Source: Ancylobacter sp. Lp-2
GTDB taxonomy: Bacteria; Pseudomonadota; Alphaproteobacteria; Rhizobiales; Xanthobacteraceae
Length of the DNA: 64,000 nt
Assembly: GCF_020523795.1 (NCBI RefSeq)
Contig: NZ_JAJALI010000010.1
Location: forward strand, 1-64,000
Reading direction: 5' to 3'
The notes below the pieces were generated by a model, which was not told where the DNA came from, made no database searches, and was given only the letters and a program-made list of their open reading frames with translations. Below, one piece after another: positions 41,153 to 56,372 of this stretch; position 1 is the stretch's first letter, and each line of letters begins with the position of its first letter. The translations under genes were made by a program, and so were the position numbers.

Positions 41153-42359
41153 CCGACGAGCCCTCGATGCTGGTCACATTGCGAAGGGCGTCCAAGTGAT
41201 TTGCCCAAGCCTCCATCATCTCCCGGCGGCCGGCGAGATACTGGGCGGAGTTGTATGCGCCGCGTACCTCATTCCGCTCATCGTGAGCGAGCTGTCGCTC
41301 GATCCAGTCCGGTGAGTATCCAGATTCGTTCAACCATGTGGATGCGACACCCCGAAAGCCGTGGACCGTCGCCCGGCCGTGGTAACCTATGCGGTACATC
41401 GCGAACAGCATGGTGTTGTTCGACATGAAGCCCTCCTTCGTGGGGGAGGGAAACACAAGGCGACTACGGCCCGCCAAAGGACGCAGCTCAGTCAAAACGC
41501 GAACGGCCTGCGGCGCCAACGGCACGAGATGCTCGAACCGCATCTTCATGCGGGCCGGCGGGATACGCCACAGGGGCTCGGCACCGTCTAATCCTTCGAA
41601 CTCAGCCCAAGTGGCTGCACGCAACTCGGTCGTTCGGACGAATGTCAGAACCATCAGCTGGAGGGCGAGGCGAGTCGTCGGTTCGCCATCGTAGGCAGCG
41701 AGGGCTGCGAGGAACTGCGGAAGCTCTTCACGCGGGAGCGCGCGGTGGTGCTTTTGCCGGCCCGGTGATTTCAGAGCGCCTCTGAGGTCTTGGGTCGGAT
41801 CTCGCTTGGCTCTTCCAGTCGCAATCGCATAGCGAAATATCTGCCCGACCACCTGCATCTCGCGCTTCGCGAGCTCGATCGCTCCGCGTTTCTCGACCGC
41901 GCGGATGACTTCCAGGATGTCGGGTGGCTCGATCTCCGAGATCGGCCGGTGGCCAAGCTTGGGGAAAATGTCGGCCTCGAGACGACTCATCAGCCGCTCC
42001 GAGTACGAGGGAACCCACCCGGGCAGCTTGGTCTCGAACCACTCGCGAGCAATTGGCTCCAGGGAGCGCTTAGCCGCGACGGCGGCCGCTTGCTTGTCGG
42101 CACGTCGCTTTTCGCTCGGGTCGGTTCCTGCCGCCAGGAGACGCTTAGCCTCCTCTCGCCGAGCGCGCGCATCTGCGAGCGTGACCGCGGGATAGGTGCC
42201 GAGCGCCAACGTCTTCTGCTTGCCGGCGAATCGATAGGCGATGCGCCAATAGCGGGAGCCGTCCTGGTTGACGAGGATGTAGAGCCCCCCGCCGTCCGAC
42301 AGCTTGTAGGGCTTCTCCTTGCCCTTGGCGTTCCGGACGGCGGTATCGGTCAGGGGCAT
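41142..42359 (-). CDS. Tyrosine-type integrase, P4/DUF4102 family (left element)
   Basis: 405 residues from the ATG at 42359 (MPLTDTAVRNAKGKEKPYKL, the usual Arm-domain start). Arm-DNA-binding domain 1-90, core-binding domain to about 200, then the catalytic domain with arginine in TTELRAATW, HGFRGVASTWLNE, and a tyrosine in RGAYNSAQYL. P4-type integrases insert at tRNA 3' ends. Its start is 175 bases from the 18-bp tRNA-derived repeat at 42534, so that repeat is the likely attachment site used by this enzyme too. Confidence 0.93.
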   Translation of the reverse strand: MPLTDTAVRNAKGKEKPYKLSDGGGLYILVNQDGSRYWRIAYRFAGKQKTLALGTYPAVTLADARARREEAKRLLAAGTDPSEKRRADKQAAAVAAKRSLEPIAREWFETKLPGWVPSYSERLMSRLEADIFPKLGHRPISEIEPPDILEVIRAVEKRGAIELAKREMQVVGQIFRYAIATGRAKRDPTQDLRGALKSPGRQKHHRALPREELPQFLAALAAYDGEPTTRLALQLMVLTFVRTTELRAATWAEFEGLDGAEPLWRIPPARMKMRFEHLVPLAPQAVRVLTELRPLAGRSRLVFPSPTKEGFMSNNTMLFAMYRIGYHGRATVHGFRGVASTWLNESGYSPDWIERQLAHDERNEVRGAYNSAQYLAGRREMMEAWANHLDALRNVTSIEGSSGAP

Positions 42360-42837
42360 ATTGTTGGTATCTGTTGGACTATGGGATCCGATGCCATCAC
42401 ATGTACCAACAGATTTTGTGGATGCCAACACACTGCGGCGGACGTCAGCGAATGCCAGTAAGAAGATGGGTCGTGAATTATCAGTGGCTTATCGTCCTTG
42501 TGCGCATCTCGGCGGACGCTAGCGGACGGTAAAATGGTGGGCCCGGCAGGAAACGGCCTTTAGTGCTAATTTCTCATTTAAATCAGACATTTACGGACGA
42601 CTGCGGGGCTCGTTTGTGTAGCAGAGTTATGCGAGACAGAGCCTAAATCAGGCCTCGCCAGGGCGCAACCTGCCTCCCGTTCGAGTCCACATAGAGGACA
42701 CGAACCCGCAACCATGCCGAATGTCGTCCCGTTCGAGTTGACGAACAGTCGTACACCCCCGCATGTACAAGATATTTCAATGACTTAACTTGCATCTGTA
42801 TTCGCCTTCGGTTATGAATTTTGAACCGGAGGAAGCA
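42360..42837. other. Element junction, no gene
   Basis: About 480 bases between the left integrase and the ribbon-helix-helix gene. It contains the left 18-bp att repeat (42534-42551) and an AT-rich stretch near 42560-42600. The promoter of the left integrase probably lies before 42534 and that of the right element's first gene after 42700. Confidence 0.5.
42534..42551. repeat. Left copy of an 18-bp att direct repeat (tRNA 3' end)
   Basis: ATGGTGGGCCCGGCAGGA, identical to 56296-56313, where it is the 3' end of a tRNA gene including CCA. The two copies bracket 13.76 kb and define the element 42534-56313. Similarity stops right after both copies. Confidence 0.85.
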
Positions 42838-43053
42838 ATGCGTGTAGCCAAATGCGTAGGATTGTCCTTGTCACCAGAATTGGTGGAGAGGATTGACTTA
42901 GAAGTTGATCGCCTGAAGCGCGACGGCCAGCGCGTGAACCGCTCCAAGCTCGTCAGGTCGGCGCTCTGCATCTTCTTCGATATTCAGAAAAACGTTGCAA
43001 CCGGTTGTAATAACTTCGACCGGGCGACGACTGCCCATCCCCAGGACGTTTGA
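42838..43053 (+). CDS. Ribbon-helix-helix (CopG/Arc-type) DNA-binding protein
   Basis: 71 residues from the ATG at 42838, preceded by GGAGGA; the upstream in-frame ATGs lack a site. MRVAKCVGLSLSPELVERID forms the ribbon and first helix, followed by a second helix VNRSKLVRSALCIFF. Such proteins are small repressors or antitoxins. It is the first gene of the right-hand element and a candidate controller of its genes. The 3' part overlaps one copy of the recurring palindrome (42995). Confidence 0.75.
   Translation: MRVAKCVGLSLSPELVERIDLEVDRLKRDGQRVNRSKLVRSALCIFFDIQKNVATGCNNFDRATTAHPQDV
42995..43010. repeat. Recurring palindrome TTGCAACCGGTTG-type, copy 1
   Basis: TTGCAACCGGTTGTAA inside the 3' end of the ribbon-helix-helix gene. 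One of about seven related sites in the element; weaker ones are at 44519 and 51615. Confidence 0.6.
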
Positions 43054-43064
43054 AGGAGCTTGCC

Positions 43065-43613
43065 GTGTCTGTGGCGCTTGGTGTCCCCGCCGCCCGTAAG
43101 TCCGATGCCGACAGCCGTTCCGGCTACATCGGTCCCGCTGAAGCCGCCTATCGCGAGGAAGTTCGCAAGGCTCAAGCCCGCGATGCCGCGCTGAACGCAT
43201 TTCGCCCTCTGCCGGGCGAGGCGAGCAAGTCTGACCCGGAACACGTTGTGCGCTCCAGTAACGGCCGGCAATCCATGATGGGCGGCGCAATGCTCGACCA
43301 GATTTCCGGCACGCCCACCATGGCCCGCAAGGCCGAAGCGCTGGACGCTAAAGGCTTGCATTCCGCGGCTCGCGCCAAGGCCGATATCCTGCCGCCGGAC
43401 GCGTTGCGTCTGTTCGATCTGGTTCTGAGAACCGATGACGCCCATCGGGGCGCCCAGTTGATCAGCCTTCCCGCCACTGACATCGCCCATGCGCTCGGCA
43501 TCCCCGAGAGCGCCGCCCAGGCTGCGCGCGACGAATTGGAACGGCGTGACCTGCTCCGCTTCTTCGACGATTTCAGCGGCAACAGGGGTTTCCGTCCTGC
43601 CCCGAGCATCTGA
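43065..43613 (+). CDS. Hypothetical protein with a C-terminal winged-helix-like region
   Basis: 182 residues from a GTG at 43065 (AAGGAG seven bases upstream; a TTG at 43050 overlapping the previous stop is the alternative). The N-terminal half is alanine-rich and probably flexible; the C-terminal half (LPATDIAHALGIPESAAQAARDELERRDLL) reads like a winged helix. It is the second gene of the element and may be a regulator or initiator. No family recognised. Confidence 0.6.
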   Translation: MSVALGVPAARKSDADSRSGYIGPAEAAYREEVRKAQARDAALNAFRPLPGEASKSDPEHVVRSSNGRQSMMGGAMLDQISGTPTMARKAEALDAKGLHSAARAKADILPPDALRLFDLVLRTDDAHRGAQLISLPATDIAHALGIPESAAQAARDELERRDLLRFFDDFSGNRGFRPAPSI

Positions 43614-43752
43614 GGCCGCTCAACTATCTTTTGCGGCGCCTCCGTGCTCACGGGCGCCGTGAAGCGGGCGGGACGCCCTTTCTCCAGTTCGGCGCCCCGC
43701 CCCCAGCCCTTCCCTCATATCCCCTGTCAACGCACCTCTCAGGAGCACGGTT

Positions 43753-44232
43753 ATGACCGGCACCCTCGACGACGATGATGACGGCAATCCGCTTAACCAT
43801 CCGGCCGTTTTGGTTGCTGCCATTGCTCGCATAAATGACGCGGAAGACGCCTATCGGCACCTGAATGCGAATGCCGTGCTTGAGTTGCCCTACTGCCGTA
43901 ATCTCATCGCGTTGCTGGTGTGGTCGCTCCGCCGCGATGGCCACCAGCAGACCGTTTTCCAGGATTGGGAAACGAATTTTCTCATCGGTGAGATGATCAA
44001 GCGCGCCCTCCCGCATGGGCAGAAATTCGCCCGTCGGATCATGGCGGAAGTAGACGTCGCAGCGGAAGCGGTTACCGGAGCGGGTGGCGGCGAGTTGGCG
44101 CCGTCCGCCCTGGATCAGCACTTCAGCAACGTCGCGGCTCGGGAGTTGGCATTGCAGGCGGCGACCATCGGCTTTCTCGCCATCGCAAAGCACCTGATCG
44201 AGGCGGAAAACGAGACGCCCGCCGCCGCGTAA
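43753..44232 (+). CDS. Hypothetical protein of the element
   Basis: 159 residues, AGGAG before the ATG. Acidic N-terminus (GTLDDDDDGNPL), then helices with LELPYCRNLIALLVWSLRRD and an alanine-rich C-terminus. No recognised domain. Gap and stem-loop-like sequence (44258-44293) separate it from the terminase-like genes. Confidence 0.55.
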   Translation: MTGTLDDDDDGNPLNHPAVLVAAIARINDAEDAYRHLNANAVLELPYCRNLIALLVWSLRRDGHQQTVFQDWETNFLIGEMIKRALPHGQKFARRIMAEVDVAAEAVTGAGGGELAPSALDQHFSNVAARELALQAATIGFLAIAKHLIEAENETPAAA

Positions 44233-44314
44233 CGAGACACGAAACGAGACGAGCCTAGCCCCCTCCCGTCATTCGGGGCCGACGGGGAGGGGCATTAGAG
44301 AGAGAACGACCGCT

Positions 44315-44986
44315 ATGGCCCGCCCCTGTGCCTGCTGCATCCATATCCAACGACCTGCGATTGACGCGGCGCTGGTTGCCGGCACGCCTGTTCGCGCCAT
44401 CGCTGCGCAGTTCGAGTTGACGCCAGCGGCTGTTCATCGCCACGCTCAACGGCACCTCACCGCCCAGCTACATGCCCACGCCCACGCGCACGCTGCTGCC
44501 CTGGCTCACGTCTCAGATTTGCAACCGGTTTCACCGAACCGTGCCTTTCGCCCCGCCGCATTCACGCGCCTTCTCCAGGTTGACGATGTGCCGCCATCTA
44601 CGCCCGAAGCGTCGGAGAGCATCCCCGCCGCCCCGACCGCTCCCACCGCAACGCCCGCGCCGGCCCCTGAGCCTGCCGTTGGAGTGCCGTTAGACCCGTA
44701 CGCCCTGGCCTGCGAACTTCGCGATAGCGCAATCTCCATTTTGCGACATGCCGCCGCCTCCGGTGACTCAAAGTTGGCTCTGGAAGCCAATCGCACCGCC
44801 ACCGCAGTTCTCGACCGGCTCGCCAGACTCATGCCCGTCCAGTCGCCCGCTGGCGCCGCCCTGCCGCTCGCTACCTCGCAGGAATGGCTTGCGGTGCGCG
44901 CCGCCATTGTTGCCGCGTTGGGTCCCCATCCCGAGGCGAGGGACGCTGTGATTGCTGCGCTGGCGGAAATGGCGGGTGCCCCATGA
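44315..44986 (+). CDS. Terminase small subunit-like DNA-binding protein
   Basis: 223 residues. N-terminal cysteine-rich start (MARPCACCIHIQRPAIDAAL) then a helix-turn-helix (GTPVRAIAAQFELTPAAVHRHAQRHL), a long proline/alanine linker and a helical C-terminus. The pattern and its ATGA overlap with the following ATPase gene fit a small terminase that recognises packaging DNA. The histidine- and cysteine-rich start could bind metal. Inference from position is strong, sequence support moderate. Confidence 0.65.
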   Translation: MARPCACCIHIQRPAIDAALVAGTPVRAIAAQFELTPAAVHRHAQRHLTAQLHAHAHAHAAALAHVSDLQPVSPNRAFRPAAFTRLLQVDDVPPSTPEASESIPAAPTAPTATPAPAPEPAVGVPLDPYALACELRDSAISILRHAAASGDSKLALEANRTATAVLDRLARLMPVQSPAGAALPLATSQEWLAVRAAIVAALGPHPEARDAVIAALAEMAGAP

Positions 44987-45765
44987 GCTTAGCTGGCGAT
45001 CTTTCCGACGCGATTGACCCCACCCGCTTGATGACCTCCGCAGGGCTCCAGCCGGACCCTTGGCAGGTTGAATTTCTGCGCTCTACCGCACCAAGATACC
45101 TATTGCTCTGCGCGCGGCAGGTAGGAAAATCGACCGTCACGGCCGCCTTGGCGAGTCATGTTGCGATCTACCATCCCAATAGCCTCGTGCTGACGTTGGC
45201 CCCCAGTATGCAGCAATCCTTTGAAATTTTTCGGAAAATCAATAGTTTCTATCACGAGGCGGAGACGCCCGAGCTAGATGCCCAGAGCGCGCGTCGCATC
45301 GAATTGCCGAATGGCTCCCGCATCATCAGCTTGTCGGGCAATGCTGTCACCGTTCGTGGTTTTTCCGCGCCCCGGCTGGTGATCGTTGACGAGGCCGCCT
45401 TTGCCGACGACGAACTGTTTGCCGCTGTAAGTCCGATGCTGGCCGGAGGCGGCAGGTTGATACTGTTGTCTTCGCCGAACGGCAAAGCCGGATTTTTCTA
45501 TGAACAATGGGCGAACGGCGGGGCGGCATGGGCACGGACCCGTGTGACTGCGGAAATGTCGTCTCGCATCCCAGCCGAGTTCCTTGCCGTCGAACGCGCG
45601 ACCAAGCCTGACCGCGACTTCCGGCGCGAATATCTGTGTGAGTTCGTCGACGTGGACGAGCAGTATTTCGGCTCCGATCTCCTCCTCCGCGCCTTCGAAA
45701 GCCCTGTGGAGCCGCTGTTCTCGCGTCCCTTCACATGGCGCGCGCCCGCTGAAAGGGTCGCTTAG
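44983..45765 (+). CDS. Terminase large subunit, ATPase domain only
   Basis: 260 residues from the ATG overlapping the previous stop. Walker A ARQVGKST at 44-51, Walker B LVIVDEAAF with D136/E137, motif III LLSSPNGKAGF. This is the packaging-motor ATPase of phage terminases. A usual large terminase has 450-600 residues and continues into a nuclease; here it ends with a TAG at 45763-45765, and the nuclease is encoded by the next gene, starting at the very next base. Motor function without an attached nuclease is the notable feature. Confidence 0.85.
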   Translation: MSLAGDLSDAIDPTRLMTSAGLQPDPWQVEFLRSTAPRYLLLCARQVGKSTVTAALASHVAIYHPNSLVLTLAPSMQQSFEIFRKINSFYHEAETPELDAQSARRIELPNGSRIISLSGNAVTVRGFSAPRLVIVDEAAFADDELFAAVSPMLAGGGRLILLSSPNGKAGFFYEQWANGGAAWARTRVTAEMSSRIPAEFLAVERATKPDRDFRREYLCEFVDVDEQYFGSDLLLRAFESPVEPLFSRPFTWRAPAERVA

Positions 45766-46479
45766 ATGCCAATCAAGATCGTTCGCACGCCCAATGATCC
45801 GCACCACTCCCGCGCGGTGGTCTACGTGTTTGACCCGGCCGACCGCCACAGGACTAATTCTCCCCGCCCGCAAGGTCGGATGTATCGCGATAAGGCAACA
45901 GGCCGGATGATGTTGCGCCCCGCTTCGCCCGTCTCCGAGCGGGATTTCTTCGTTGGGCTGGACCTTGCGCAGAGCAACGATTACACGGCAATTGCCATCG
46001 TCCGGCGCACAGAGAGCGGCCTTATCGTGCCCTTCCTAGCAAGGACGAGGGGGCGCCCGTACCCCGACATTGTTGCTTCTGTCGCTGATCTCATGAGCCG
46101 TCCCGAGCTTGCAGGCGCGAAGCTCATCATCGACGGAACAGGGGTCGGGAGGCCCGTCTTTGACCTTCTCCGCGCGGCTGACCTAGACCCGATATCCGTC
46201 ACCATAACGGCTGGGGCGAAGGCGACAGGCGCCCGACGACGGTTTCGCGTACCAAAGCGCGACCTCGTCAGCGCGGTCCTCTTGGCGTTGCAGGCCGAAA
46301 CTCTCACCATCGCGCCCAACATCGAACATGCCGACGATCTTCGGCAGGAGTTGGCGGACATGCGCGCCAAGATCACGCCCGCCGGCAATGAGACCTATGC
46401 CGCCCGCGAAGGCGCGCACGACGATTTGGTCATGGCCTTGGCCCTCGCCGTGTGGATGGCCGAACGCGCTGCCCGCTGA
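45766..46479 (+). CDS. Terminase large subunit, RNase H-like nuclease domain as a separate gene
   Basis: 237 residues. Acidic residues of the terminase nuclease are visible: D66 in VGLDLAQSNDYT, D123 in LIIDGTGVG and D219/D220 in HDDLVMALALAV. The ATG directly abuts the ATPase stop without a gap, so the two are co-translated. The first 50 residues are not part of the nuclease core and begin MPIKIVRTPNDPHHSRAVV, so this is a real independent N-terminus rather than a simple stop-codon break. Confidence 0.85.
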   Translation: MPIKIVRTPNDPHHSRAVVYVFDPADRHRTNSPRPQGRMYRDKATGRMMLRPASPVSERDFFVGLDLAQSNDYTAIAIVRRTESGLIVPFLARTRGRPYPDIVASVADLMSRPELAGAKLIIDGTGVGRPVFDLLRAADLDPISVTITAGAKATGARRRFRVPKRDLVSAVLLALQAETLTIAPNIEHADDLRQELADMRAKITPAGNETYAAREGAHDDLVMALALAVWMAERAAR

Positions 46480-46518
46480 TCCGTCCCGCCTCACCGTGCT
46501 TCTATAGAGAAACACATA

Positions 46519-47865
46519 ATGACCACACAGAACCATACCACCACGATGACGGCGGTACCTGCCATTCGCTATCGCTCCCGCACGGGTCTGAGACATCTCG
46601 ACACCGCACATCCGGCCGATGTTCTGTTTCCAGCATACGATGCACGCCATGACCGGGTGAAGGTCCGCGTCGCAGCACGGGTCCACCTCTCCCAACCTGA
46701 GCTCTGGGAGGACTATATTGGAGAGATTGCCCCGCCGGACCATGCTGGGCTCTTTGTGACCAGCGCCCCCCAGGCTGGCGCCGCCCAATTCAAATTGCGG
46801 GTGCGCGGAACCAAAGCCAATCCGCTGTGGCTAATCGCCGGAGGCGGGATTGTGAGATGGCGACAATCAGCTGGCTTCTTTGATATCGCGCTTGATCTCG
46901 ACGTGAACCCGACCCGCTTCCTCGCTCATCAGCCGGATCCGTCTGTCACCGCTATCCATGAACGTGGTCCGCTCGACGCCTTCCGTGTGAACGTGTCAGC
47001 TGCCGCTGCCCTTCGCGCGATGACCCTGGACGCCAGCGACAACGTTCTCACAACGCTGGCACAACTCGGCGGTACGACCTTCACCCGCCGGGAGGCCCAA
47101 TGGGATGCTGTCTTGGCGGCGCACTTCGACCAATTGAGCAATGCCCTCATTGAGACCCTGGCCCCGCCCCATATCGGCGCCGAACTAGAGATGACCCTTT
47201 CGGTCGCCCAGGCGGAGACCTATTGGGAGCTCTCGGTCCCGGATGCAGTGTCGACTATCGGCGCCTTATGCCAGTCGGTGAAGATGTCTGATGGGGCCGC
47301 GCGTCTGTCGCAGCGGGCGGATATCGGAGGCGAGGCCAACGCTCAGTGGATTAAGATGCCGCTCACTGACGATGCTGACCTCAAGTTCTACGCAAAGACC
47401 AGCGACCGTATCCGCGTGGAAATCACCCACCACGACCGCATAGCACAGTTTGCGGGCCGCAACGGGCGCCCCATGGGGGCTGGGGTCGCCGCCACCTTGC
47501 GTGCGCTGTCACGCGACGCAGCCAACCGCCTTCACCGTGTCTGGACCGCCATCATGAACCTTCATGCCCTTCAGGCCGACGCCGCTGACGTTTGTGATTT
47601 TATGTCGAAGCTCAATGCCGCCGTCCCCGAGCAAAATCGGCGCCTCATCCTGTCGCTTCTCGCCAATCATCGCGCCCTGACCGAAACCACTGTCGATGGC
47701 TTCGCGCCGGCATCGGTCTGCCGCGCACTCCGCCGTACCGGCGTACTGGTCCCAATCCATGCCCGCAATCGGGCGGCAGCGCGGTATGTGCTCACTCCGG
47801 CGTATTCCGCGATGTTCGACAGGCTGCTCGATCGGCGGGATGCGGTCAGACCGTTGATCAACTGA
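46519..47865 (+). CDS. Unknown 448-residue protein of the element
   Basis: ATG at 46519 without a strong ribosome-binding site. The middle contains LKFYAKTSDRIRVEITHHDR, which resembles the tyrosine/aspartate-type region of phage gene II-like replication initiators, but other motifs of that family are not seen. The C-terminus reads like a helix-turn-helix (VCRALRRTGVLVPIHAR). It follows the terminase-like pair and is followed by a copy of the recurring palindrome just after its stop. Possible replication initiator; could equally be a structural or defence protein. Confidence 0.6.
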   Translation: MTTQNHTTTMTAVPAIRYRSRTGLRHLDTAHPADVLFPAYDARHDRVKVRVAARVHLSQPELWEDYIGEIAPPDHAGLFVTSAPQAGAAQFKLRVRGTKANPLWLIAGGGIVRWRQSAGFFDIALDLDVNPTRFLAHQPDPSVTAIHERGPLDAFRVNVSAAAALRAMTLDASDNVLTTLAQLGGTTFTRREAQWDAVLAAHFDQLSNALIETLAPPHIGAELEMTLSVAQAETYWELSVPDAVSTIGALCQSVKMSDGAARLSQRADIGGEANAQWIKMPLTDDADLKFYAKTSDRIRVEITHHDRIAQFAGRNGRPMGAGVAATLRALSRDAANRLHRVWTAIMNLHALQADAADVCDFMSKLNAAVPEQNRRLILSLLANHRALTETTVDGFAPASVCRALRRTGVLVPIHARNRAAARYVLTPAYSAMFDRLLDRRDAVRPLIN

Positions 47866-47871
47866 GGGATA

Positions 47872-47887
47872 TTGCAACCGGTTGCAC
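47872..47887. repeat. Recurring palindrome, perfect core copy
   Basis: TTGCAACCGGTTGCAC, with a perfect 14-base palindrome TGCAACCGGTTGCA, lies in the 190-base gap before the restriction-modification gene, a good place for an operator. Confidence 0.7.
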
Positions 47888-48055
47888 TGCGCTTCTGCAA
47901 TTTCGAACGCCCTCGTACCCGATGACTGCCCAGCCGTTTGGATGGCTAATGCGGATTTTACAGAGACTTCCGCCTCCTGGTGACGGGCCGCCGCATTGAT
48001 GGTGCTGTGATGAAAAGCTACGTTCGAAAATAAACTCCCGACTTTTCAGGCGCAC

Positions 48056-51000
48056 ATGGTTGACGTTGAGCATTTTATCTCCCGCTGGACCGTACGCGAA
48101 GGTGGTCAGGAACGGGCGAACTATGCCTTATTCCTTGCCGAGTTATGCCAGCTGATCGGCGTTGATCCGCCGGAGCCGGCTGGGCATTCGAGCGAACTGA
48201 ATGCCTATGTCTTTGAGCGGGCTGTCACGTTCCGGGAGCCGGATGGCTCTACGGCGAAGGGGCGCATCGACCTCTATAAGCGCGGCTGTTTCGTGCTGGA
48301 GGCCAAGCAGAGCCGTCAGGGCGAGGGTCCGAAAGCTCCTGCTGGTGGCGAGCAGCAGGCGTTGTTCTCCGTCGAAGAGGCGCCTCAGGGACGGCGCGTG
48401 AGCCGTCGGTGGGATGTTCTTATGATGAACGCCCGCCGTCAGGCAGAGGACTATGCGAAAGCCCTGCCGGCTGCGGAGGGTTGGCCTCCCTTCCTGATCG
48501 TCTGCGATGTCGGCAACTGCTTCGAGCTCTATGCGGACTTCTCCGGGCAGGGGAAGAACTACGCACAGTTCCCGGACCGGCAGGGCTTCCGCGTCTTCCT
48601 GCAGGACCTTCGCTCGCAGGAGGTGCGCGAGCGGCTGAAGAAGGTCTGGACCGACCCGCATAACCTCGACCCGACGAAGCGTGCCGCCAAAGTCACGCGT
48701 GACATAGCCGAGCGACTTGCCAAGGTGTCTAAGTTCCTTGAAGAGCAGCGTGGGACGGACGGCAAGCCACTCTACAAGCGCGAGGCCATCGCCTCCTTCC
48801 TCATGCGCTGCCTGTTCACGATGTTTGCGGAAGATGTGGAGCTGATCCCGAAGGAGAGCTTCAAGCGCGTGCTCGACCGCTGCCGGACTAGCCCGGAGTT
48901 GTTGCCGCAACTGGTCGGACAGCTCTGGGAGGCGATGGACACCGGTGCCTTCGCCTTCGCAATCGAGGCCAAGGTAAAGCGCTTCAACGGCTACCTATTC
49001 AAGGACCGCACGGTGTTGCCGCTGCCGCGCGAAGAGATTGGCGAACTGTTCGAGGCCGCGAAAGCAAACTGGCGAGAGGTCGAGCCGGCTATCTTCGGCA
49101 CGCTGCTGGAGCAGGCGTTGGACCCGTCAGAGAGGCGTAAACTCGGGGCGCACTACACCCCACGCGCCTACGTCGAGCGGCTGGTGATTGCCACTGTTAT
49201 TGAGCCACTGCGGGCGGAATGGGACCTCGTGCGGGCGACGGCAGAACGTTTGAGCAGCGAGGGAAATCCTGCTGCGGCCTTGGCGGAGGTCACGAAGTTC
49301 CATGCGCAGCTCTGTACCGTGCGCGTGCTGGATCCCGCCTGCGGCACCGGCAACTTCCTCTATGTATCGCTGGAACTGATGAAGCGGCTGGAAGGCGAGG
49401 TGCTGGAGGCGGTGGCGGACCTCGGAGGCCAGGAGGCGCTTGGCCTTGACCGCCATACCATCGACCCGCACCAGTTCCTCGGCATGGAGTTGAACCCGCA
49501 CGCCGCCGCCATTGCTGAACTGGTGGTGTGGATCGGTTTCTTGCAATGGTTCTTCCGCACGCAGGGCGGCCAGCCGACAGAGCCTATTCTCCGCGACTTC
49601 AAGACCATCAAAGCGATGGACGCGGTGCTGCTGCACGACGGGAGCGAGCCGGCAGTGGACGCGTCAGGCCAGCCGGTGATGCAGACGGATGCCGAAGGCC
49701 GCCGGGTGCCGGTGCTGAGCTTCCGCAACCCGCGCCTGCCGCAATGGCCGGAAGCCGAGTACATTGTGGGCAATCCGCCCTTCATCGGAGCCAAATTCAT
49801 GCGGGGATATCTTGGCGACGGCTACGCCAAGGCGCTGTGGGCGGCGCACCCGCACATGAACGAGAGCGCCGACTTCGTGATGTACTGGTGGGACCGGGCG
49901 GCCGACCTGCTGACCCGGCGGGGGACGAAGCTGCGGCGCTTCGGCTTCGTTACCACCAACTCGATTACGCAGGAATTTTCCCGCCGCGTCATGGAGGCAC
50001 GGATGAAGGCAAAGAAGCCGATTTCCCTGCTGATGGCGATACCGGACCACCCATGGACCAAGGTGACGAAGGATGCAGCGGCGGTGCGCATCGCCATGAC
50101 CGTGGCGGCAGCCGGGAAGCAAGGCGGCGTGCTGCGGGAGGTCGTGCGGGAAGACAGCTTGAATACCGACGCACCTGCGATTGAGCTGACCGATCACAAC
50201 GGAGATATAAACACAGATTTGACCGTAGGAGTCGACCTAACATCGGTCTCTGCCTTGAAATCTAATAAGTTCGTGTGCTCTCCGGGAGTTAAATTGCACG
50301 GAGATGGATTCATTGTACATGAAGAGTTGATTGATCAATTGGGGCTTAATGCGGTTGTAGATATAAATTATTTGAAAGAATACAGAAACGGAAGAGACAT
50401 AGTTGGAACTCGCAGAGGTGTGAAAGTTATTGATCTCTTTGGGTTGGATGAGGAAGAAGCAAGACGTCGAGTCCCTCGAATTTACCAGCATCTCATGGCA
50501 ACGGTCAAAGTTGACCGACAAGCGCAGTTACAAAGGGTTCGCACGGCTGACTCGGAGGAGTATCTACGCCGCTGGTGGATTTTCGGGAAGCCGAGGCAAG
50601 AACTTCGTTCAGCTCTACGAGAATTGAGAAGATACATTGTTACCCCTGTAACGACTAAGCACCGAGTATATCAATTCCTGGATACAAATGTCGTTCCGGA
50701 TGATGCACTGATGAGTATTGCTATCGAGGACGCTTTTATATTAGGGGTAATGTCGTCGGCCGTATGCGTAAGGTGGACGATGAGCGCTGGAAGTACGCTT
50801 GAAGACCGTCCTCGATTTATCAAGGCAAGTTGCTTCGACCCCTTCCCCTTTCCCGACGCGTCCGAGCCGCTGAAGGCCGAAATCCGCGCCGTTGCCGAGG
50901 AACTCGATGCCTTCCGCAAGGCCCGACAGACGGAACATCCGCGCCTCACCCTGACCCAGATGTACAATGTGCTGGAAAAGCTGAAGGCCAGTGCGCCGCT

Positions 51001-51517
51001 AGACAAGGAGGATATCCGCATTGGCGACGAAGGGCTGGTGCTGATCCTCAAGGAACTACACGGCAAAATCGACGCGCTGGTGTTCGACGCCTATGGCTGG
51101 CCGCGCGGCCTCTCCGACGAGGATATCATCGCCCGTCTGGTGGCGCTCAACAAGGAAAGGGCCGAGGAGGAGGCGCGTGGCCTGATCCGCTGGCTGCGGC
51201 CGGACTACCAGAAGGCCCGCGCCGGCATTATCGCCACCGTAAAGCCCACCGAGGAGCAGGGCAACATGGCGCTCGTGGTCGAGGCCGCCAAGGAGCAGAA
51301 GCCGCCGTTCCCGGCGGGCGAAGTAGAACGCACCGCAGCCATCATGGCAGCGCTCGCCAACGCCTCCGGCCTAGTGAGTGCTGCGTCTATTGCCGCCGGC
51401 TTCCGCCAAGGTAAGCGAGCGGAACCGCAGGTGCTGGCCACGCTCGCCTCCCTCGCCCGCATGGGCTTCGCCAGCAGCCGCGATGGACAGAGCTTTATGC
51501 TGCGGCGGGTAGCCTGA
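48056..51517 (+). CDS. Type IIG restriction-modification enzyme (nuclease-methylase-specificity fusion)
   Basis: 1153 residues. N-terminal PD-(D/E)xK nuclease: D72 in GRIDLY, then E82 and K84 in VLEAKQ. The N6-adenine methyltransferase domain has LDPACGTGNFLY (SAM binding, near residue 425) and NPPF (catalytic, near 572) with HYTPRAYVERL upstream. The remaining part includes a target-recognition region at about 50190-50830 whose base composition is far more AT-rich than the rest, then a helical C-terminus. One protein would both methylate and cut DNA, giving defence or self-preservation to the element. It stands alone between palindrome-bearing gaps. Confidence 0.85.
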   Translation: MVDVEHFISRWTVREGGQERANYALFLAELCQLIGVDPPEPAGHSSELNAYVFERAVTFREPDGSTAKGRIDLYKRGCFVLEAKQSRQGEGPKAPAGGEQQALFSVEEAPQGRRVSRRWDVLMMNARRQAEDYAKALPAAEGWPPFLIVCDVGNCFELYADFSGQGKNYAQFPDRQGFRVFLQDLRSQEVRERLKKVWTDPHNLDPTKRAAKVTRDIAERLAKVSKFLEEQRGTDGKPLYKREAIASFLMRCLFTMFAEDVELIPKESFKRVLDRCRTSPELLPQLVGQLWEAMDTGAFAFAIEAKVKRFNGYLFKDRTVLPLPREEIGELFEAAKANWREVEPAIFGTLLEQALDPSERRKLGAHYTPRAYVERLVIATVIEPLRAEWDLVRATAERLSSEGNPAAALAEVTKFHAQLCTVRVLDPACGTGNFLYVSLELMKRLEGEVLEAVADLGGQEALGLDRHTIDPHQFLGMELNPHAAAIAELVVWIGFLQWFFRTQGGQPTEPILRDFKTIKAMDAVLLHDGSEPAVDASGQPVMQTDAEGRRVPVLSFRNPRLPQWPEAEYIVGNPPFIGAKFMRGYLGDGYAKALWAAHPHMNESADFVMYWWDRAADLLTRRGTKLRRFGFVTTNSITQEFSRRVMEARMKAKKPISLLMAIPDHPWTKVTKDAAAVRIAMTVAAAGKQGGVLREVVREDSLNTDAPAIELTDHNGDINTDLTVGVDLTSVSALKSNKFVCSPGVKLHGDGFIVHEELIDQLGLNAVVDINYLKEYRNGRDIVGTRRGVKVIDLFGLDEEEARRRVPRIYQHLMATVKVDRQAQLQRVRTADSEEYLRRWWIFGKPRQELRSALRELRRYIVTPVTTKHRVYQFLDTNVVPDDALMSIAIEDAFILGVMSSAVCVRWTMSAGSTLEDRPRFIKASCFDPFPFPDASEPLKAEIRAVAEELDAFRKARQTEHPRLTLTQMYNVLEKLKASAPLDKEDIRIGDEGLVLILKELHGKIDALVFDAYGWPRGLSDEDIIARLVALNKERAEEEARGLIRWLRPDYQKARAGIIATVKPTEEQGNMALVVEAAKEQKPPFPAGEVERTAAIMAALANASGLVSAASIAAGFRQGKRAEPQVLATLASLARMGFASSRDGQSFMLRRVA

Positions 51518-51820
51518 ACGATGTGCGAGCTTTATCGCGGCATTCACCTGCAATGTTGATCCCGACGCAGTGAAGGTAAATGCGTCTTGCCAGAGCGGCT
51601 AGCCTCGAAAGATGGTCCAACTGGTTGCACCATGCTGCCTTCGTGGCGCCTCGATGGTCCACCGCTCTCCGGTTCCAATAGACCAAGCCCCAGCGGAACA
51701 CTCCGTCCTGGAACATCACCCTGCCGATGCATGTTCCAATAAAGTCAATTTGACATTTTGGAACGCGCCTCATACGATGTCTAAGACTTCAATGGAACAG
51801 ATTGATCGGAACACCCCGCC
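51518..51820. other. Resolvase upstream region
   Basis: About 300 bases with no gene. It has several GGAAC/GTTCC units, a degenerate palindrome copy at 51615 and a 32-bp dyad at 51733-51764. This is the likely res/operator region of the following resolvase. Confidence 0.55.
51733..51764. promoter_or_regulatory. 32-bp dyad, candidate resolvase res subsite/operator
   Basis: Outer arms GTTCCAA and TTGGAAC are perfect inverted copies, with inner GTCAA and TTGAC also matching. It lies 57 bases upstream of the resolvase ATG; length and form fit a Tn3-type res subsite. Confidence 0.65.
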
Positions 51821-52381
51821 ATGTCGCTCCTGATCGGCTACGCCCGCACCTCCACCTTAGAACAGGAAGCGGGTCTGGACGCCCAGCTTCGCGACCTCAG
51901 TGCAACTGGTTGCAAAAAGGTGTTCTCAGAGCGTGTTTCCTCTGTCGCCCACCGCGACCAGCTTGACGCCGCACTCGACTATCTCAGGGACGGGGACACG
52001 CTTGTCGTCAGCAAGCTCGACCGCCTCGCCCGCTCTGTTCGCGATCTGGTCGCGATCATCGACCGTATCGAGGCGAAAGGCGCCGCCCTCCGCATTCTGG
52101 CGATGCAACTCGACACCTCGACACCCACCGGCAAGCTCATGCTCAACGTCTTGGGGTCCGTCGCCCAATTCGAGCGCGAGCTGATGCTGGAACGCCAGCG
52201 CGAAGGCATCGCGAAGGCTCAGATTGAGGGGAGGTACAAGGGCCGCACCCCTAGCGCCCGCAATCGGGCGGATGAAGTGCGCGCCCTGTTGGCCGAGGGC
52301 ATCGGCCCCGTCGAAATCTCCAAGCGGCTCGGCATCGGCCGCACCTCTGTCCACCGCATCATGAAGGGCGACGTCGCGTGA
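51821..52381 (+). CDS. Serine resolvase/invertase (Tn3 type)
   Basis: 186 residues. Catalytic serine in YARTSTLEQ, GLDAQLRDL, VVSKLDRLARSVRDL, then the E-helix GKLMLNVLGSVAQFEREL and a C-terminal HTH (EISKRLGIGRTSVHRIM). Full-length for a resolvase. A res-like dyad lies upstream and a palindrome copy lies inside the 5' part (51900). It probably resolves multimers of a circular form of the element or regulates its own gene. No transposase is nearby. Confidence 0.92.
   Translation: MSLLIGYARTSTLEQEAGLDAQLRDLSATGCKKVFSERVSSVAHRDQLDAALDYLRDGDTLVVSKLDRLARSVRDLVAIIDRIEAKGAALRILAMQLDTSTPTGKLMLNVLGSVAQFERELMLERQREGIAKAQIEGRYKGRTPSARNRADEVRALLAEGIGPVEISKRLGIGRTSVHRIMKGDVA
51900..51915. repeat. Recurring palindrome within the resolvase gene
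   Basis: GTGCAACTGGTTGCAA, a variant with T at one central position. Confidence 0.55.
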
Positions 52382-52505
52382 TCCAGGACGGCCGACGCAC
52401 TTCATCTGGCGTGGAAAAAGCGGGGGCCTTCGGTAAGTCAAAACCCTAAACGAGTTCGGTCTCACCTTTACGTGAGCTAACCTCCATTCACTTGCCGAAC
52501 AAGTT

Positions 52506-53381
52506 TCAGTGACGAACAGTCGGCCTGCTCACCTCGCGCTCGTGGTCACGCATTTCATCTTCGATTTGCGCGACTAGTTTATCTAATTGATTTTCTTCAT
52601 AAATTTCTGGGTTATTCGGTGCCTTCTCAAGTATTGCAATGGCGGTCCGATACGCCGGGGCTAAGGTGGGATTTGTCGGTGCACCCACAATAAAGTGCGG
52701 CTTGAAATGCTCGGCCTTGCCACCTGCGACCACCGCAGATAGATGTCCCAGCCATTCCCGCGCCTTCCCTTTGATCCCATCAGCATCCGCCAAGTCGAAA
52801 GACAGCGGCTCGTAAACATGCCACTGACCATTCTTCCAAGCATGCTTGAAAACAATCTCGTCGAGCCCTCCTTGGATTGATTTTTCCTGAAGGCATTGAG
52901 CAATGTTTCTTTCTTCAAGCTGCTGACGCACTGGACGCCACACATCTTCATCAGTCTTTCGGTGACGAGTATGAGCGTCGTAGCGCGTGACAAATCTCTG
53001 AAACAAACGTTCTAACGTTTCTTCGGGAGAGCCGGTCAAACCTGTGCCGCACGGCGACCATTGGAGGGAACTATCGTCAGGAGGCAAAGCCTGTCGCGCG
53101 ACAGCTGCAGCATCCCCCTTTGTTCGAAAGAGACCAGCGTCCTTCTCTCGACTGGCCATGTGGTCCAGCCCTCGCCGCACCGCCTTCATCGACGACACGA
53201 ACGCTACCCTGTCAATGTCGGGAAATGCTCCCTTCAAGCGGCCGATCGTAGTGCGCATCTTGAAGCAGAGTTGGCCCGTCGCGGGCACGAACAGAACGAC
53301 CCCAACGTTGACAAACTCACCCGTTAGCACGTCATGGACGTACCTTAGCAGCGTGTAGCTGTATGCCACCTTATCGATCAT
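52506..53381 (-). CDS. DUF3037-family protein, partner of a HipA-like kinase
   Basis: 291 residues. The start YSYTLLRYVHDVLTGEFVNVGVVLF is the DUF3037 signature. The long C-terminal half is predicted mixed alpha/beta, ending in a charged helix (EDEMRDHEREVSR). The ATG overlaps the stop of the HipA-like gene by ATGA, so the two are co-translated. DUF3037 genes are commonly adjacent to HipA-like kinase genes; biochemical function is not established as far as I know. A toxin-antitoxin-like or defence role is inference. Confidence 0.8.
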   Translation of the reverse strand: MIDKVAYSYTLLRYVHDVLTGEFVNVGVVLFVPATGQLCFKMRTTIGRLKGAFPDIDRVAFVSSMKAVRRGLDHMASREKDAGLFRTKGDAAAVARQALPPDDSSLQWSPCGTGLTGSPEETLERLFQRFVTRYDAHTRHRKTDEDVWRPVRQQLEERNIAQCLQEKSIQGGLDEIVFKHAWKNGQWHVYEPLSFDLADADGIKGKAREWLGHLSAVVAGGKAEHFKPHFIVGAPTNPTLAPAYRTAIAILEKAPNNPEIYEENQLDKLVAQIEDEMRDHEREVSRPTVRH

Positions 53382-54169
53382 GATAGCACCCGCTTCACTT
53401 CCTCCAAGACCGCGTCAATGTTGTCTCGCGCGTCTCTGATCAGTTTCATCGCGCTCGCCGCCGAGTGGCCGACATCCGGCCACTCCGTTGGGAGCGCAGC
53501 CTCATAGTCTGCCACCTTGGCATCCGACAAGCCTTGCCAAGCATCCCGTATCAACCCGTAGTCTATGACGCGGCCTCGCAGCCGCTCCCTAAAAATATGA
53601 TAACCGGGACTTTCGAGGTGCTTAAGGCCATCCTGCATCCAAGGCGGTTTCCATCCCAGCACAAGCTCATGAGAGAACGTTAGCTCATGATCAATGATGC
53701 GCAGTTCGTCCCCTCGGACAAGGCAGTTCGGATTAGCAGCTCTCCGGTCGGGGTTCTGCGTGATCGCGTCGAAAACGAATATGCCAGCTGCGGCAGGCAG
53801 CATTAAGTCCGAAACGAGGTTTCCCGAGCTCCAAGTGGCGAATTGACCCGTCATGACGCGTGATCCGAAGGCCACATCGGAACTGGCGTCAATTTGGGCG
53901 CGTCGGGCCTCATCCGGTACGGTAGCCGCCCACTCCCCAGACACCTCCACCAAATAAGGCTCAGGAACAGGGAGGCCGAGATCCCCAGCAAGACAACAAG
54001 CGATAACCTCTCTTGCGAGGTTGATGTTTCCCTGGTCGCAGCAACCAGAAAATTTTACCACTACTTCAATAATGGAACCATCGCTAAGCTCACAAGTTAC
54101 GAATAGGGGATTTGTACGCCCCTGCGTAGCAGCTTTATCATACTGTATTGGACAGGCGCGCTTTAACAC
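53378..54169 (-). CDS. HipA-like Ser/Thr kinase-fold protein
   Basis: 263 residues from a GTG at 54169. N-terminal lobe strands (PLFVTCELSDGSIIEVVVKF with a candidate ATP-binding lysine), AREVIACCLAGDLGLPVPEPYLVEV, and the catalytic region ITQNPDRRAANPNCLV followed by RIIDHELTFSHE. NxDRxxxNPN and iDHe match the HipA-like (HipA_2) kinase pattern. Smaller than HipA (about 440 residues) and without HipB next to it; its partner is the DUF3037 gene. Confidence 0.8.
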   Translation of the reverse strand: MLKRACPIQYDKAATQGRTNPLFVTCELSDGSIIEVVVKFSGCCDQGNINLAREVIACCLAGDLGLPVPEPYLVEVSGEWAATVPDEARRAQIDASSDVAFGSRVMTGQFATWSSGNLVSDLMLPAAAGIFVFDAITQNPDRRAANPNCLVRGDELRIIDHELTFSHELVLGWKPPWMQDGLKHLESPGYHIFRERLRGRVIDYGLIRDAWQGLSDAKVADYEAALPTEWPDVGHSAASAMKLIRDARDNIDAVLEEVKRVLS

Positions 54170-54473
54170 GTTTATGGCCCGTTATCGATTAACTCAATAC
54201 TTCCGCTTCGGTTAGTCCGCCCACCGACAGAAACATCCGACTCGGGAAAGTCTATAATTGATACGCTCTGGGCGAACGGTTGAGCAATCGCATTGCAACG
54301 TCAGGTGGGTGACAGTTTGACGCCTTTATAGGTAACCTTCGCCAAGGCGTCGGCGAGGCGGAGCCCAGTACCGTGAATTAGAACACCACCGTCTGTAGAG
54401 ACGGGGGATAGGATTGCAACCGGTTGCACGGATTGGGCCATCTCCCCGTTGCCGTCTGTGCAGCCGGTTGCGC
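54170..54473. other. Non-coding gap with two palindrome copies
   Basis: About 300 bases between the 3' end of the integrase gene and the start of the kinase gene. It contains the palindromes at 54414 and 54459 and the promoter of the kinase pair. No gene seen. Confidence 0.5.
54414..54429. repeat. Recurring palindrome, perfect core copy, with a second variant at 54459
   Basis: TTGCAACCGGTTGCAC is identical over 16 bases to the copy at 47872. A looser form GTGCAGCCGGTTGCGC begins 45 bases further right and runs into the integrase stop. Confidence 0.7.
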
Positions 54474-56273
54474 CTAGATCGGCTTCAGGTGCGAAAGGTC
54501 AACGCCCTCGAATTTGACCCGCGCCATGACCTCGGCGAGCGTCTTCGGACGCGTGCCCTGTCCGTACCTCTCCTCGACGCCGCCTGACCTCGCCCAGCCG
54601 CCCAGCGCCCGCGTAGCGTCAATGGGCGAGCCCGCCTCGCGCAAGGCATCTCGGAACCCATGCCTGAACGAATGAAACGAGGTGCCCGGCGCGTTCACCC
54701 CGAGTGTCGTCTTCGACCAATATGCAAACCGCTTTTGGAACACGTCCGCAATCTGGTCCTGGCCCTCGCCGGGTAGATCGGGAAACAGACCCTCGGCCCC
54801 CTTCGCCTTCATGGCCTCGGCGTGCCGCAGGATGCCGAGCCGGATCAACTCAGGATGAACGGGTACCACACGTTCGGCGCCCGGCGTCTTCAGGCGTCGA
54901 TCAACCTCACGCCGCAGGACGAAACACTTCACCCCGTCCTTCTCCGCCACGTCGGCGACTTTCAAGGTCACGATCTCGCCGAGGCGCATGCCAGAAAATA
55001 GCCCGATCAGCGGCACCCAATAGCGCCCGCCCTTGCCACCGCTCCAAGCGGGGAGAGCGCGGAAAATCGTACTCAATTCCTCGACGCTGAATGGCCTCCG
55101 GCCTTGCTCGCTAGCACTCTTGGCCGGCGCCATGCGCACGGCGGGATTAGCGGTGACGATGCCCTTCGTGATGCACCAGTTAAAGAAGCTCGACAAAGTG
55201 TGCGTGTAGACCCGGAGCGTGCCGACCGCCATGCGCGTGGCGCCATCCTTCGCCGCTTGCTCCGCCACCGCCTTGAGCGTCTTCAGCCGGGCATATTTTT
55301 TCATCTTTCCGAAATTGGGAGGAAGGCCGGCGAGGAGTTCCTGTGTCGCAGCACAATCCGGCCGCGTAATCGAGGCGACAGGCCGCGCCTCGCCGACCAC
55401 CTCTTTCAGGGCGCGGAACATGAGCACAAACTTCATCCCGGCGCTCTCAGTCAGGTGTGACCGCGTCGGGTCGTTCTCGAAACGCTTGATCGCCTCGCCG
55501 AGCGTGGTTCCCTGCAGGCCCTGCGCAGGGGGAGGGGCGAACGATGCCACGCCCGCGAACACGGGATCATGCGCCTTATCCCCGTGCCCGCCGTCTACAC
55601 GATCGAGAGCGCGCATCCGGCCCTCGACCTCGCTACGGCGGACCAACTCTTGAAGGTGGAGAAATTCCGGCGAGAGCGTGAACGACTGCCCGGCGAGCGG
55701 GAGCCCGTTGGCGCCCTTGATCGGCTCCGGCACGGCGATGTTAAGCTTGTGGTCGCGGATGATCGCCACGGTGCGGGCGAACAACGCGGCGCGGGCATTG
55801 TCGTCGCTCGCTCGATATGCCGCGATCGTGGTTTCCAGTGCGTCGATCCAGTCCTCCGCCTCGACGCCCTGGGGCACGGGTGGCATGACAGAGGCGGCGC
55901 GCTGGTCCTGCCATAGCTCGACGGCGACCGCCGCTTTCATTTCGCCTTCGGTCGGGCCGAGCTTCTTCGGCATCTCGAAAGCGGAGCCGGTCGCCAGCGC
56001 CCGGCGCGCCTCCGCGAACAGGTTATCGACCGTCGCCCCCGCCTTGCGCGCCTCGACCACCGCTTTCCGGTACTCCGTTGTGTCGAGAGATATCCACAGC
56101 TCGCGCCGACCGATGACGACTCGCAACTCATCCGGCACCCGCCGCCGGTACGTGTAAGCCGACCCTCTGCGGACCAGACCGGAGACCTGTACCACCTCTT
56201 TCGCTCCTCTTGTGTAGCGAGTTTGTGTAGCAGTCACCCGTTCTAGGTCTTTGATTTTCTGAGACTTTCTCAC
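54474..56273 (-). CDS. Tyrosine-type site-specific integrase (DUF6538 family), right element
   Basis: 599 residues if it begins at the GTG at 56273; a later start near the VSGLVRRGSAYTYRRRVPDEL segment is possible, since this is the usual N-terminus of the family. The C-terminal catalytic domain has arginine in GMRLGEI, HSFRHGFRDAL, and a tyrosine in GGVEERYGQG. The gene starts 24 bases from the tRNA 3' end, the classical arrangement for an integrase using that tRNA as attB, so it should have inserted the 42.5-56.3 kb element. Confidence 0.92.
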   Translation of the reverse strand: MRKSQKIKDLERVTATQTRYTRGAKEVVQVSGLVRRGSAYTYRRRVPDELRVVIGRRELWISLDTTEYRKAVVEARKAGATVDNLFAEARRALATGSAFEMPKKLGPTEGEMKAAVAVELWQDQRAASVMPPVPQGVEAEDWIDALETTIAAYRASDDNARAALFARTVAIIRDHKLNIAVPEPIKGANGLPLAGQSFTLSPEFLHLQELVRRSEVEGRMRALDRVDGGHGDKAHDPVFAGVASFAPPPAQGLQGTTLGEAIKRFENDPTRSHLTESAGMKFVLMFRALKEVVGEARPVASITRPDCAATQELLAGLPPNFGKMKKYARLKTLKAVAEQAAKDGATRMAVGTLRVYTHTLSSFFNWCITKGIVTANPAVRMAPAKSASEQGRRPFSVEELSTIFRALPAWSGGKGGRYWVPLIGLFSGMRLGEIVTLKVADVAEKDGVKCFVLRREVDRRLKTPGAERVVPVHPELIRLGILRHAEAMKAKGAEGLFPDLPGEGQDQIADVFQKRFAYWSKTTLGVNAPGTSFHSFRHGFRDALREAGSPIDATRALGGWARSGGVEERYGQGTRPKTLAEVMARVKFEGVDLSHLKPI

Positions 56274-56295
56274 CGATCAACCACTTAGGTTGTGG

Positions 56296-56313
56296 ATGGT
56301 GGGCCCGGCAGGA
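56296..56313. repeat. Right copy of the 18-bp att direct repeat, at the tRNA 3' end
   Basis: Identical to 42534-42551. On the minus strand it is the acceptor 3' strand, part of the T arm and the CCA end of the tRNA gene, so insertion keeps the tRNA intact. Confidence 0.85.
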
Positions 56314-56372
56314 CTCGAACCTGCAACCAGACCGTTATGAGCGGCCGGCTCTAACCATTGAGCTACAGGCCC
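56297..56372 (-). tRNA. tRNA with anticodon CAT, probably tRNA-Ile2 (lysidine-modified)
   Basis: 76 bases including encoded CCA. The acceptor stem GGGCCTG pairs with CGGGCCC (one G-U), the D stem is GCTC/GAGC, the anticodon stem GGCCG/CGGTC encloses loop CTCATAA with CAT, and the T arm is GCAGG-TTCGAGT-CCTGC. CAT can read Met or, after lysidine modification, Ile (AUA). The GGGCC acceptor and short D loop resemble alphaproteobacterial tRNA-Ile2 rather than elongator Met; that choice is from memory. It serves as the integration site for the elements to its left. Confidence 0.93.

Follow-up and report, generated by a model that had tools for sequence, protein, structure and literature searches.

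We describe here a 13.8-kb element at positions 42534 to 56313 of a 64,000-nucleotide stretch of DNA from Ancylobacter sp. Lp-2 (NZ_JAJALI010000010.1, positions 1 to 64,000; assembly GCF_020523795.1; hereafter the window). In our estimate the chances are evenly divided that this is an integrative, capsid-less satellite-like element that would package itself, with its own terminase, into the heads of a helper phage. We give this reading its weight because the element is bounded by a direct repeat, and in a relative the site is taken up by a different element; because the terminase large subunit (TerL), encoded as two proteins, keeps its motifs and is arranged as an operon with the small subunit (TerS), the genes overlapping or abutting; because this triad of genes recurs in other satellite-sized elements; and because a terminase-bearing satellite-like element occupies the very same tRNA gene in another genome of the genus, G062. 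An earlier note on this DNA had proposed a satellite-like or packaging-capable defense island; the bounded element, the packaging genes, and the defense-type cargo of that proposal stand, whereas its packaging part draws on the integrity of the genes and on elements of other kinds, and not on conservation within the element's own kind.

Integration site and boundaries of the element

The element is enclosed by an exact 18-bp direct repeat, ATGGTGGGCCCGGCAGGA (Table 1), and no third copy with three or fewer mismatches is found across the 64 kb (chance expectation, 0.17). The right copy is the 3' end of a tRNA gene with a CAU anticodon, and the integrase gene starts 24 bp from the end of this tRNA gene and is oriented away from it. 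The coordinates, the tRNA-derived repeat copy, and the integrase orientation given in the earlier note are therefore correct. The G+C content of the element is 60.6% versus 65.1% in the remainder of the window.

To place these boundaries in a comparative context, we searched the tRNA region in 30 genomes of the same genus. In G062 (locus L059), the right flank (L059 3–1633) corresponds to window positions 57936–56297 (88%) and the left flank (L059 14185–14646) to window positions 42551–42088 (79%); both alignments stop at the inner edge of the repeat, and an unrelated 12.6-kb element lies in between. This occupant (L059 1617–14200) has matches to a primase, TerL (phrog_15), portal, capsid-protease, and head decoration proteins, and looks like a capsid-forming, cf-PICI-like satellite inserted in the same tRNA gene with the same boundaries. 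Genome G497, with a right flank 95% identical, shows no element in the 1.6 kb between the contig start and the tRNA, the right side alone being comparable, and G501 harbors a related integrase at the same tRNA with different cargo. With direct repeats of which one is a tRNA 3' end, an adjoining integrase, and boundaries backed by relatives, the sequence identifies a discrete integrative element at a tRNA gene, as first proposed.

Terminase genes of the element and their clade

The fourth to sixth genes of the element encode TerS, the ATPase half of TerL (TerL-A), and its RNase H-like nuclease half (TerL-N). TerS was recognized with a hidden Markov model (HMM) built from 42 TerS-like proteins encoded at split-TerL loci, the window being omitted. 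TerL-A keeps both Walker motifs, A (RQVGKS) and B (LVIVDEA), and TerL-N keeps the acidic positions D66, D123, and D219/D220. The TerS and TerL-A genes overlap in ATGA, and the ATG of TerL-N follows the TerL-A stop codon directly. The three genes make up an intact TerS–TerL-ATPase–TerL-nuclease operon.

A sequencing break as the origin of the split TerL was ruled out, since the separate form is common in this clade. Among 154 loci with an ATPase match, the nuclease is separate and adjacent in 78 and joined to the ATPase in one open reading frame (ORF) in 44, with a long ATPase ORF lacking a nuclease match in a further 27 and other arrangements in five. All but three of these loci come from scans of viral collections (the best 80 of 213 loci in one scan; among the matches listed in the other) and were selected for their similarity, with some representing fragments of a single contig. 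The best ATPase matches in named phages (90 records, all below 60% identity) are single-gene TerLs of Thermus (48%) and Meiothermus (46%) phages. Split-TerL loci are also found within viral-collection contigs of up to 64 kb, which points to a phage terminase by origin. No description of a satellite with a split TerL was found in the titles and abstract openings of the papers listed by searches of an open library; the available part of PMC7156551 deals with inteins in TerL and not with a split TerL, and that of PMC12324425 with 4.6-kb marine elements unrelated to the window element.

Small elements that share the split terminase

ATPase matches were obtained in eight of 149 sampled genomes of the same family (own included) and, at class level with E ≤ 1e-30, in five of 385 (own included). 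Five of the seven other same-family genomes harbor the split form (G119, G146, G011, G050, and G129), and two harbor long single ORFs of low similarity. In three of these five, the ends are defined by repeats that are 40 bp or longer and span much of a tRNA gene, giving elements of 16.0 kb at tRNA-Gln (G050), 14.9 kb at tRNA-Lys (G119), and 15.8 kb at tRNA-Lys (G129); the contigs that carry the remaining two loci are 5.9 and 4.0 kb long. No boundary repeat was found in the stretch examined of L009 (Bradyrhizobium iriomotense). Each of the three measured elements has a primase or helicase-primase match and an integrase-like gene, the latter from a comparison of 71 chosen loci that include overlapping pieces of one contig. 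Tape-measure matches occur in the G050 and G129 elements and a portal match in the latter, and no capsid match was obtained in any of the three among the proteins scanned, which did not include every small ORF. One protein family common to several split-TerL elements was folded and gave an all-helical model (predicted local distance difference test score, pLDDT, 84.6) that we read as other than an HK97-type capsid fold.

The split form extends to plasmids. Salinibacter ruber pSR11 (11.2 kb) and pSR14 (14.9 kb) combine a split TerL with a primase, ParA, and tape-measure-like proteins, and none of their proteins that were scanned matched a capsid. The S. ruber plasmid loci (L014, L015, and L016) all carry a split TerL and ParA; on pSR31, one nuclease gene directly follows another. 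The available part of PMC6060240, on Salinibacter genomes, mentions terminases on small plasmids and says no more of them. A 16-kb plasmid of Streptomyces virginiae carries the split pair, a Rhodobacteraceae plasmid locus the split pair and a portal match, and Rhodococcus pDJL3 a single-gene terminase together with an annotated tape measure. The viral contig L112 (IMGVR_UViG_3300037054_000363) has the whole triad; five other proteins scanned there gave matches to a helicase, an integrase, a head scaffold, and tail-fiber-like repeats and none to a capsid, and L112 is possibly a satellite with a capsid-remodeling gene. Elements this small, with packaging genes and no recognized capsid gene, would be hard to explain as complete phages.

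Islands that share the integrase and p448

The 448-residue protein encoded just downstream of TerL-N (p448), together with the integrase, links the element to a class of islands other than the split-TerL elements. Relatives of p448 are found in six of 347 genomes of the order (own included) and, at class level, in three of 385 (own, G262 again, and G608), giving seven loci (the window, L033–L037, and L085; a contig end truncates L035). An integrase relative stands beside p448 in four of the six other loci (G262, G338, G425, and G282) and on another contig in G368; in G608, no related integrase was found. Integrase-type islands are here those found by similarity to the whole window integrase, DUF6538 having been checked in the window integrase only. 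The TerS profile detects TerS-like genes in G262 (4.2e-15) and G338 (5.8e-10), the N-terminal part being matched, in the order RHH-like–small genes–TerS-like–resolvase–p448 (RHH, ribbon-helix-helix). TerL in the window thus occupies the place of the resolvase in these two genomes, and was either lost there or gained in the window. The RHH-like protein has a counterpart in L034 (31% over 54 residues, E 0.003), and a gene of 171 to 176 codons in L033/L034 is positioned like the window's 187-residue gene, with sequence similarity that is not convincing. The cargo of the other p448 loci looks like restriction-modification and helicase genes.

From the motif YxK...RxE, p448 is a tentative candidate for a rolling-circle initiator. 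Its AlphaFold2 model (pLDDT 74.8) is α/β, and its secondary structure, as we read it, suggests a winged-helix-like C-terminal part; a capsid role for p448 was rejected on this model, which we read as other than an HK97 fold. The model matches no PDB fold at E ≤ 0.001, a profile search against solved structures returned none, and Pfam run on all six family members gave noise only. Against a viral structure library, seven matches at E ≤ 0.001 have query TM-scores of 0.18 to 0.24 and are uninformative; a weak match there is named REP (E 1.8e-3).

An island-associated palindrome

The palindrome TTGCAAC-N2-GTTGCAA (two or fewer mismatches) occurs at five sites in the element and at none in the remaining 50.2 kb of the window or in 13 control loci (210 kb). 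Across 26 island loci (the window element, L033–L037, L064, and L268–L286), 11 loci from 10 genomes hold 31 sites, one to five each, where 0 to 0.05 per locus are expected (the window, L033, L034/L271, L036, L037, L064, L268–L270, and L272). Three other island loci have one two-mismatch site and 12, some of them short, have none (expected, 0 to 0.25); the groups with and without the palindrome were defined after the counts were known. The palindrome therefore marks many, not all, islands with related integrases. The exact sequence TGCAACNNGTTGCA is found at 25 places genome-wide in ten island-bearing genomes, 22 of them within the fetched islands, including all three places in the own genome, which lie within the element; a reversed control pattern is found at one place in the same genomes. 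A site falls within or just after the integrase gene in all ten islands.

We consider the palindrome likeliest to be a putative binding site for one regulator acting along the whole island. Mycobacteriophage stoperators are dispersed operators of this general kind. The two central bases vary, which is unlike LacI-type operators. Other roles were considered and rejected. As sites of cassette exchange by the resolvase, the palindromes would be expected at clean module borders, against which three of the five window sites lie within ORFs (RHH, TerS, and resolvase). A tie to p448 was ruled out by L064, L270, and L272, which have the palindrome and no p448 match. Nor does it mark one integrase clade: on an integrase tree (without L277, L284, L286, and L035, with L271 standing for the L034 integrase of the same genome), the palindrome label requires four changes versus a shuffled mean of 7.3, with six of 500 shuffles as low, and is clustered without forming a single clade. 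In a viral-collection scan, 54 of 80 loci among the matches listed have one site, as chance gives in a large collection; arrays among the matches listed (two or fewer mismatches) comprise 10 sites in L314, eight in L329, seven in L302, and six in L352, the densest being 10 sites in 11.8 kb. The palindrome offers a simple marker by which islands of this type can be found and an entry point to how they are regulated.

Remaining genes of the element

None of the 12 ORFs of the element has an internal stop. On the plus strand, the order is RHH-like, 187-residue protein, 159-residue protein, TerS, TerL-A, TerL-N, p448, type IIG enzyme, and resolvase; the DUF3037 protein, the HipA-like kinase, and the integrase are on the minus strand (Table 1). 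The gene list of the earlier note is upheld by family matches, weakly so for the RHH protein, as is the defense-type nature of the cargo. The type IIG enzyme is assigned to the MmeI group by its methyltransferase (1.1e-30) and the motifs DPACG, NPPF, and D..EAK; its target-recognition domain match is 24.8 bits, under the 27-bit cut-off. The adjacent kinase and DUF3037 genes are identified by PADLOC as both members of the candidate defense pair PDC-M66.

The note had also recognized no portal, capsid, tail, or lysis gene, and we agree: no match above noise to these families was obtained with Pfam on all 12 proteins or PHROGs on 10 of them (HipA-like kinase and integrase excluded). Besides the terminase families, a single structural-type match came up, at E 0.14, between TerS and phrog_34543 ("virion structural protein"), and was taken as noise. 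The 187- and 159-residue proteins would be short for a capsid protein.

Table 1. Features of the Ancylobacter sp. Lp-2 element (positions in the window)
Feature	Position	Strand	Evidence or remark
Distal 18-bp att repeat (left boundary)	42534..42551	+	Exact repeat; G062 homology ends here
RHH-like regulator	42790..43053 (start may be 42814)	+	PF01402 E 0.0027, 18 bits vs cut-off 20.5
Palindrome site 1	42995..43010	.	Inside RHH ORF near its 3' end
187-aa protein, C terminus winged-helix-like	43050..43613	+	Weak HTH_IclR, E 0.031
159-aa protein	43753..44232	+	No Pfam/PHROG family; NCBIfam matches far sub-threshold only
TerS, terminase small subunit	44315..44986	+	HMM of 42 TerS-like proteins, E 2.9e-35
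Palindrome site 2	44519..44534	.	Inside TerS
TerL-A, ATPase half of TerL	44983..45765	+	PF03237 6.9e-14; phrog_7579 1.7e-52
TerL-N, RNase H-like nuclease half of TerL	45766..46479	+	PF17289 1.9e-5; phrog_27743 2.8e-33
p448, 448-aa protein, candidate replication initiator	46519..47865	+	6-sequence family, invariant YAK..RxRxE
Palindrome site 3	47872..47887	.	Just 3' of p448
MmeI-like type IIG restriction-methylation enzyme	48056..51517	+	PF20473/20464/20465; PADLOC REase_MTase_IIG 1591 bits
Serine resolvase/invertase	51821..52381	+	PF00239 4.6e-40
Palindrome site 4	51900..51915	.	Inside resolvase
DUF3037 protein, candidate defense PDC-M66B	52506..53381	-	PF11236 2.8e-20; PDLC04767 2.5e-87
HipA-like kinase, candidate defense PDC-M66A	53378..54169	-	PF20613 (HipA_2) 8.7e-17; PDLC04766 3.5e-74
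Palindrome site 5	54414..54429	.	Just past integrase stop
Tyrosine integrase with DUF6538	54474..56273	-	PF20172 4.7e-16, PF00589; 79% identical to G501 integrase at same tRNA
Proximal 18-bp att repeat within tRNA 3' end	56296..56313	+	Exact repeat
tRNA, CAU anticodon, integration site	56297..56372	-	3' end overlapped by right repeat copy

Surroundings of the tRNA gene

A second integrase gene, of P4 type (41142–42431, minus strand), begins roughly 100 bp beyond the left repeat, and G062 has a partial copy of it in the same place (79% over 105 residues), which suggests tandem insertion at one tRNA gene. The ORF at window positions 1–1089, outer-membrane-protein-like by eye, matches L058 30–1118 in G497, where it lies about 0.5 kb from the tRNA versus 55 kb in the window; from these distances, the whole stretch may be accreted, with assembly effects possible as both contigs begin in the matched ORF. 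In G501, the island at the same tRNA (L064 52–5054) carries genes for proteins of 1040 and 626 residues, which resemble DISARM components.

Relationship to described satellites

P4-like satellites carry a P4-type primase and capsid-size genes, and the element has no match to either. It likewise has no match to the capsid, portal, tail, and lysis genes of a complete prophage. With P4-like satellites and PICMIs it shares small size and the absence of capsid genes, and differs from them in having no primase or AlpA match and no fis location; PICMIs are defined by an integrase, AlpA, a primase, and a fis site (PMC10803314, available part), and this element is in a tRNA gene. With PICIs of the SaPI type (described in part in PMC10690885), it shares site-specific integration, a TerS of its own, and no capsid of its own; it differs in its TerL pair, where PICIs have no TerL and use that of the helper, and in the absence of a primase/Rep match and of a recognized capsid-size gene. 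Like cf-PICIs, it is a small integrative island that encodes both TerS and TerL; unlike them, it has no match to the major capsid protein, protease, portal, or connector by which they are defined (PMC10690885, same part). The earlier note had matched the element to no described family, which holds for the four families considered here (PICI, cf-PICI, P4, and PICMI).

The available part of PMC10690885 describes satellites with a TerS that redirects the helper terminase and cf-PICIs with a whole head and packaging set; capsid-less satellites there use the helper TerL, and satellites with their own TerL also make capsids. The AH14b satellite, in which its authors found no terminase, uses the helper capsid (PMC4936722, available part), and PICMIs package concatemers in full-size heads, the word "terminase" being absent from the main text of PMC10803314 as far as available. 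Further satellite families named in the accessible part of a review (PMC11389934) are PLE, VEIMEs, and tycheposons. The window element would fall between the described satellites, with its own motor and no shell, sharing one PICI feature (TerS) and failing another (no TerL); we place it among phage satellite-like islands, with its packaging as a predicted property.

Both sets of relatives resemble the element in part. The split-TerL elements (L022, L025, L026, L112, pSR11, and pSR14) have the adjacent TerL-ATPase and TerL-nuclease genes with an upstream TerS-like gene, and are small (the ends of L112 are unmapped) with no capsid match among the scanned proteins; unlike the window element, they carry primase/helicase genes and different integrases (pSR11 and pSR14 have no annotated integrase), and some have portal, tape-measure, or scaffold matches. 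The integrase-related islands (L033, L034, L036, L037, L064, and L268–L272) share a similar integrase and the palindrome and, in some, p448, the resolvase, and restriction-like cargo, and differ in that TerL is absent from L033, L034, L036, L037, and L064, those searched.

Discussion

In the self-packaging reading, phage growth in the cell would lead the integrase to excise a circle across the 18-bp repeats, which p448, perhaps a rolling-circle-type initiator, would replicate. TerS would then mark the element DNA, and the two TerL proteins would jointly pump and cut it into the empty heads of the helper, entry being via the helper's portal, with heads, tails, and lysis all supplied by the helper. 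In a new cell, the integrase would insert the element into the same tRNA gene, where the type IIG enzyme and the HipA-like/DUF3037 pair may protect the host against other phages and favor retention of the island.

Several observations weigh against this reading. Of the seven p448 loci, the window alone has TerL, and two of the others (L033 and L034) have a TerS-like gene without it. By BLAST, the window and the other split-TerL elements have the triad in common and otherwise only weak matches, to IntL (the outside integrase) and, in L084, the resolvase; the triad may for this reason be a recent capture. The element appears to be without a recognized replication gene, as no primase/Rep library match was obtained in it (Pfam and PHROGs; for p448 also Pfam on the family members and NCBIfam). 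Unassigned proteins of the relatives could be capsid proteins missed by the libraries. A PF04860 search of the own genome returned a single portal (C27:354145–355137) with one TAG inside the match, which we presume may belong to a gene transfer agent. Packaging, excision, and a helper phage are all inferred only. A search of homologous loci, proposed in the earlier note, finds TerS-like genes in the corresponding position of L033 and L034 and, among the p448 loci, TerL in the window only.

We regard as rather unlikely the main alternative, that this is a defense island moving by integration alone or by general transduction, in which the phage terminase cassette is a captured passenger that does not package. 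The restriction of TerL to one of seven p448 loci would be expected of a passenger, as would related islands that have a similar integrase, p448, the resolvase, and restriction-like cargo (from ORF reading) and no TerL, and G+C content varies along the element; set against this, all three terminase genes are intact, overlap or abut in order, and keep their motifs, and L033 and L034 retain TerS-like genes at the corresponding position. A prophage or satellite in decay, with the terminase as its last structural remnant, is in our view improbable: split-TerL cassettes do occur in viral-collection contigs of up to 64 kb and no tail or head genes remain, but no ORF is broken, the boundaries are intact, the defense modules are whole, and a split form found in 78 of 154 loci is not a break. 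We give slightly less credence still to the terminase as an antiphage weapon, with TerS and TerL competing for or jamming the procapsids of invading phages. Two defense-type modules are co-located with it, and satellites divert packaging with TerS (PMC10690885, available part); however, neither TerL gene has a PADLOC match (TerS was not in the PADLOC input), and jamming would need no nuclease half.

Returning to the self-packaging reading, we put forward as a tentative and somewhat doubtful extension a satellite family equipped with the packaging motor alone, namely a two-protein TerL and its TerS, in modular integrase-type defense islands that load themselves into the heads of unrelated helpers and contribute no part of the shell. 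In such a family, the TerS-only sister islands L033 and L034 would be the form that borrows the helper TerL, and one regulator, perhaps shared with phages, could switch the whole element through the 16-bp palindrome. If true, packaging specificity would lie entirely with the satellite in an island that has its own motor and no shell; such an island would test the docking of a foreign TerL on a helper portal and would suggest how some defense islands move.

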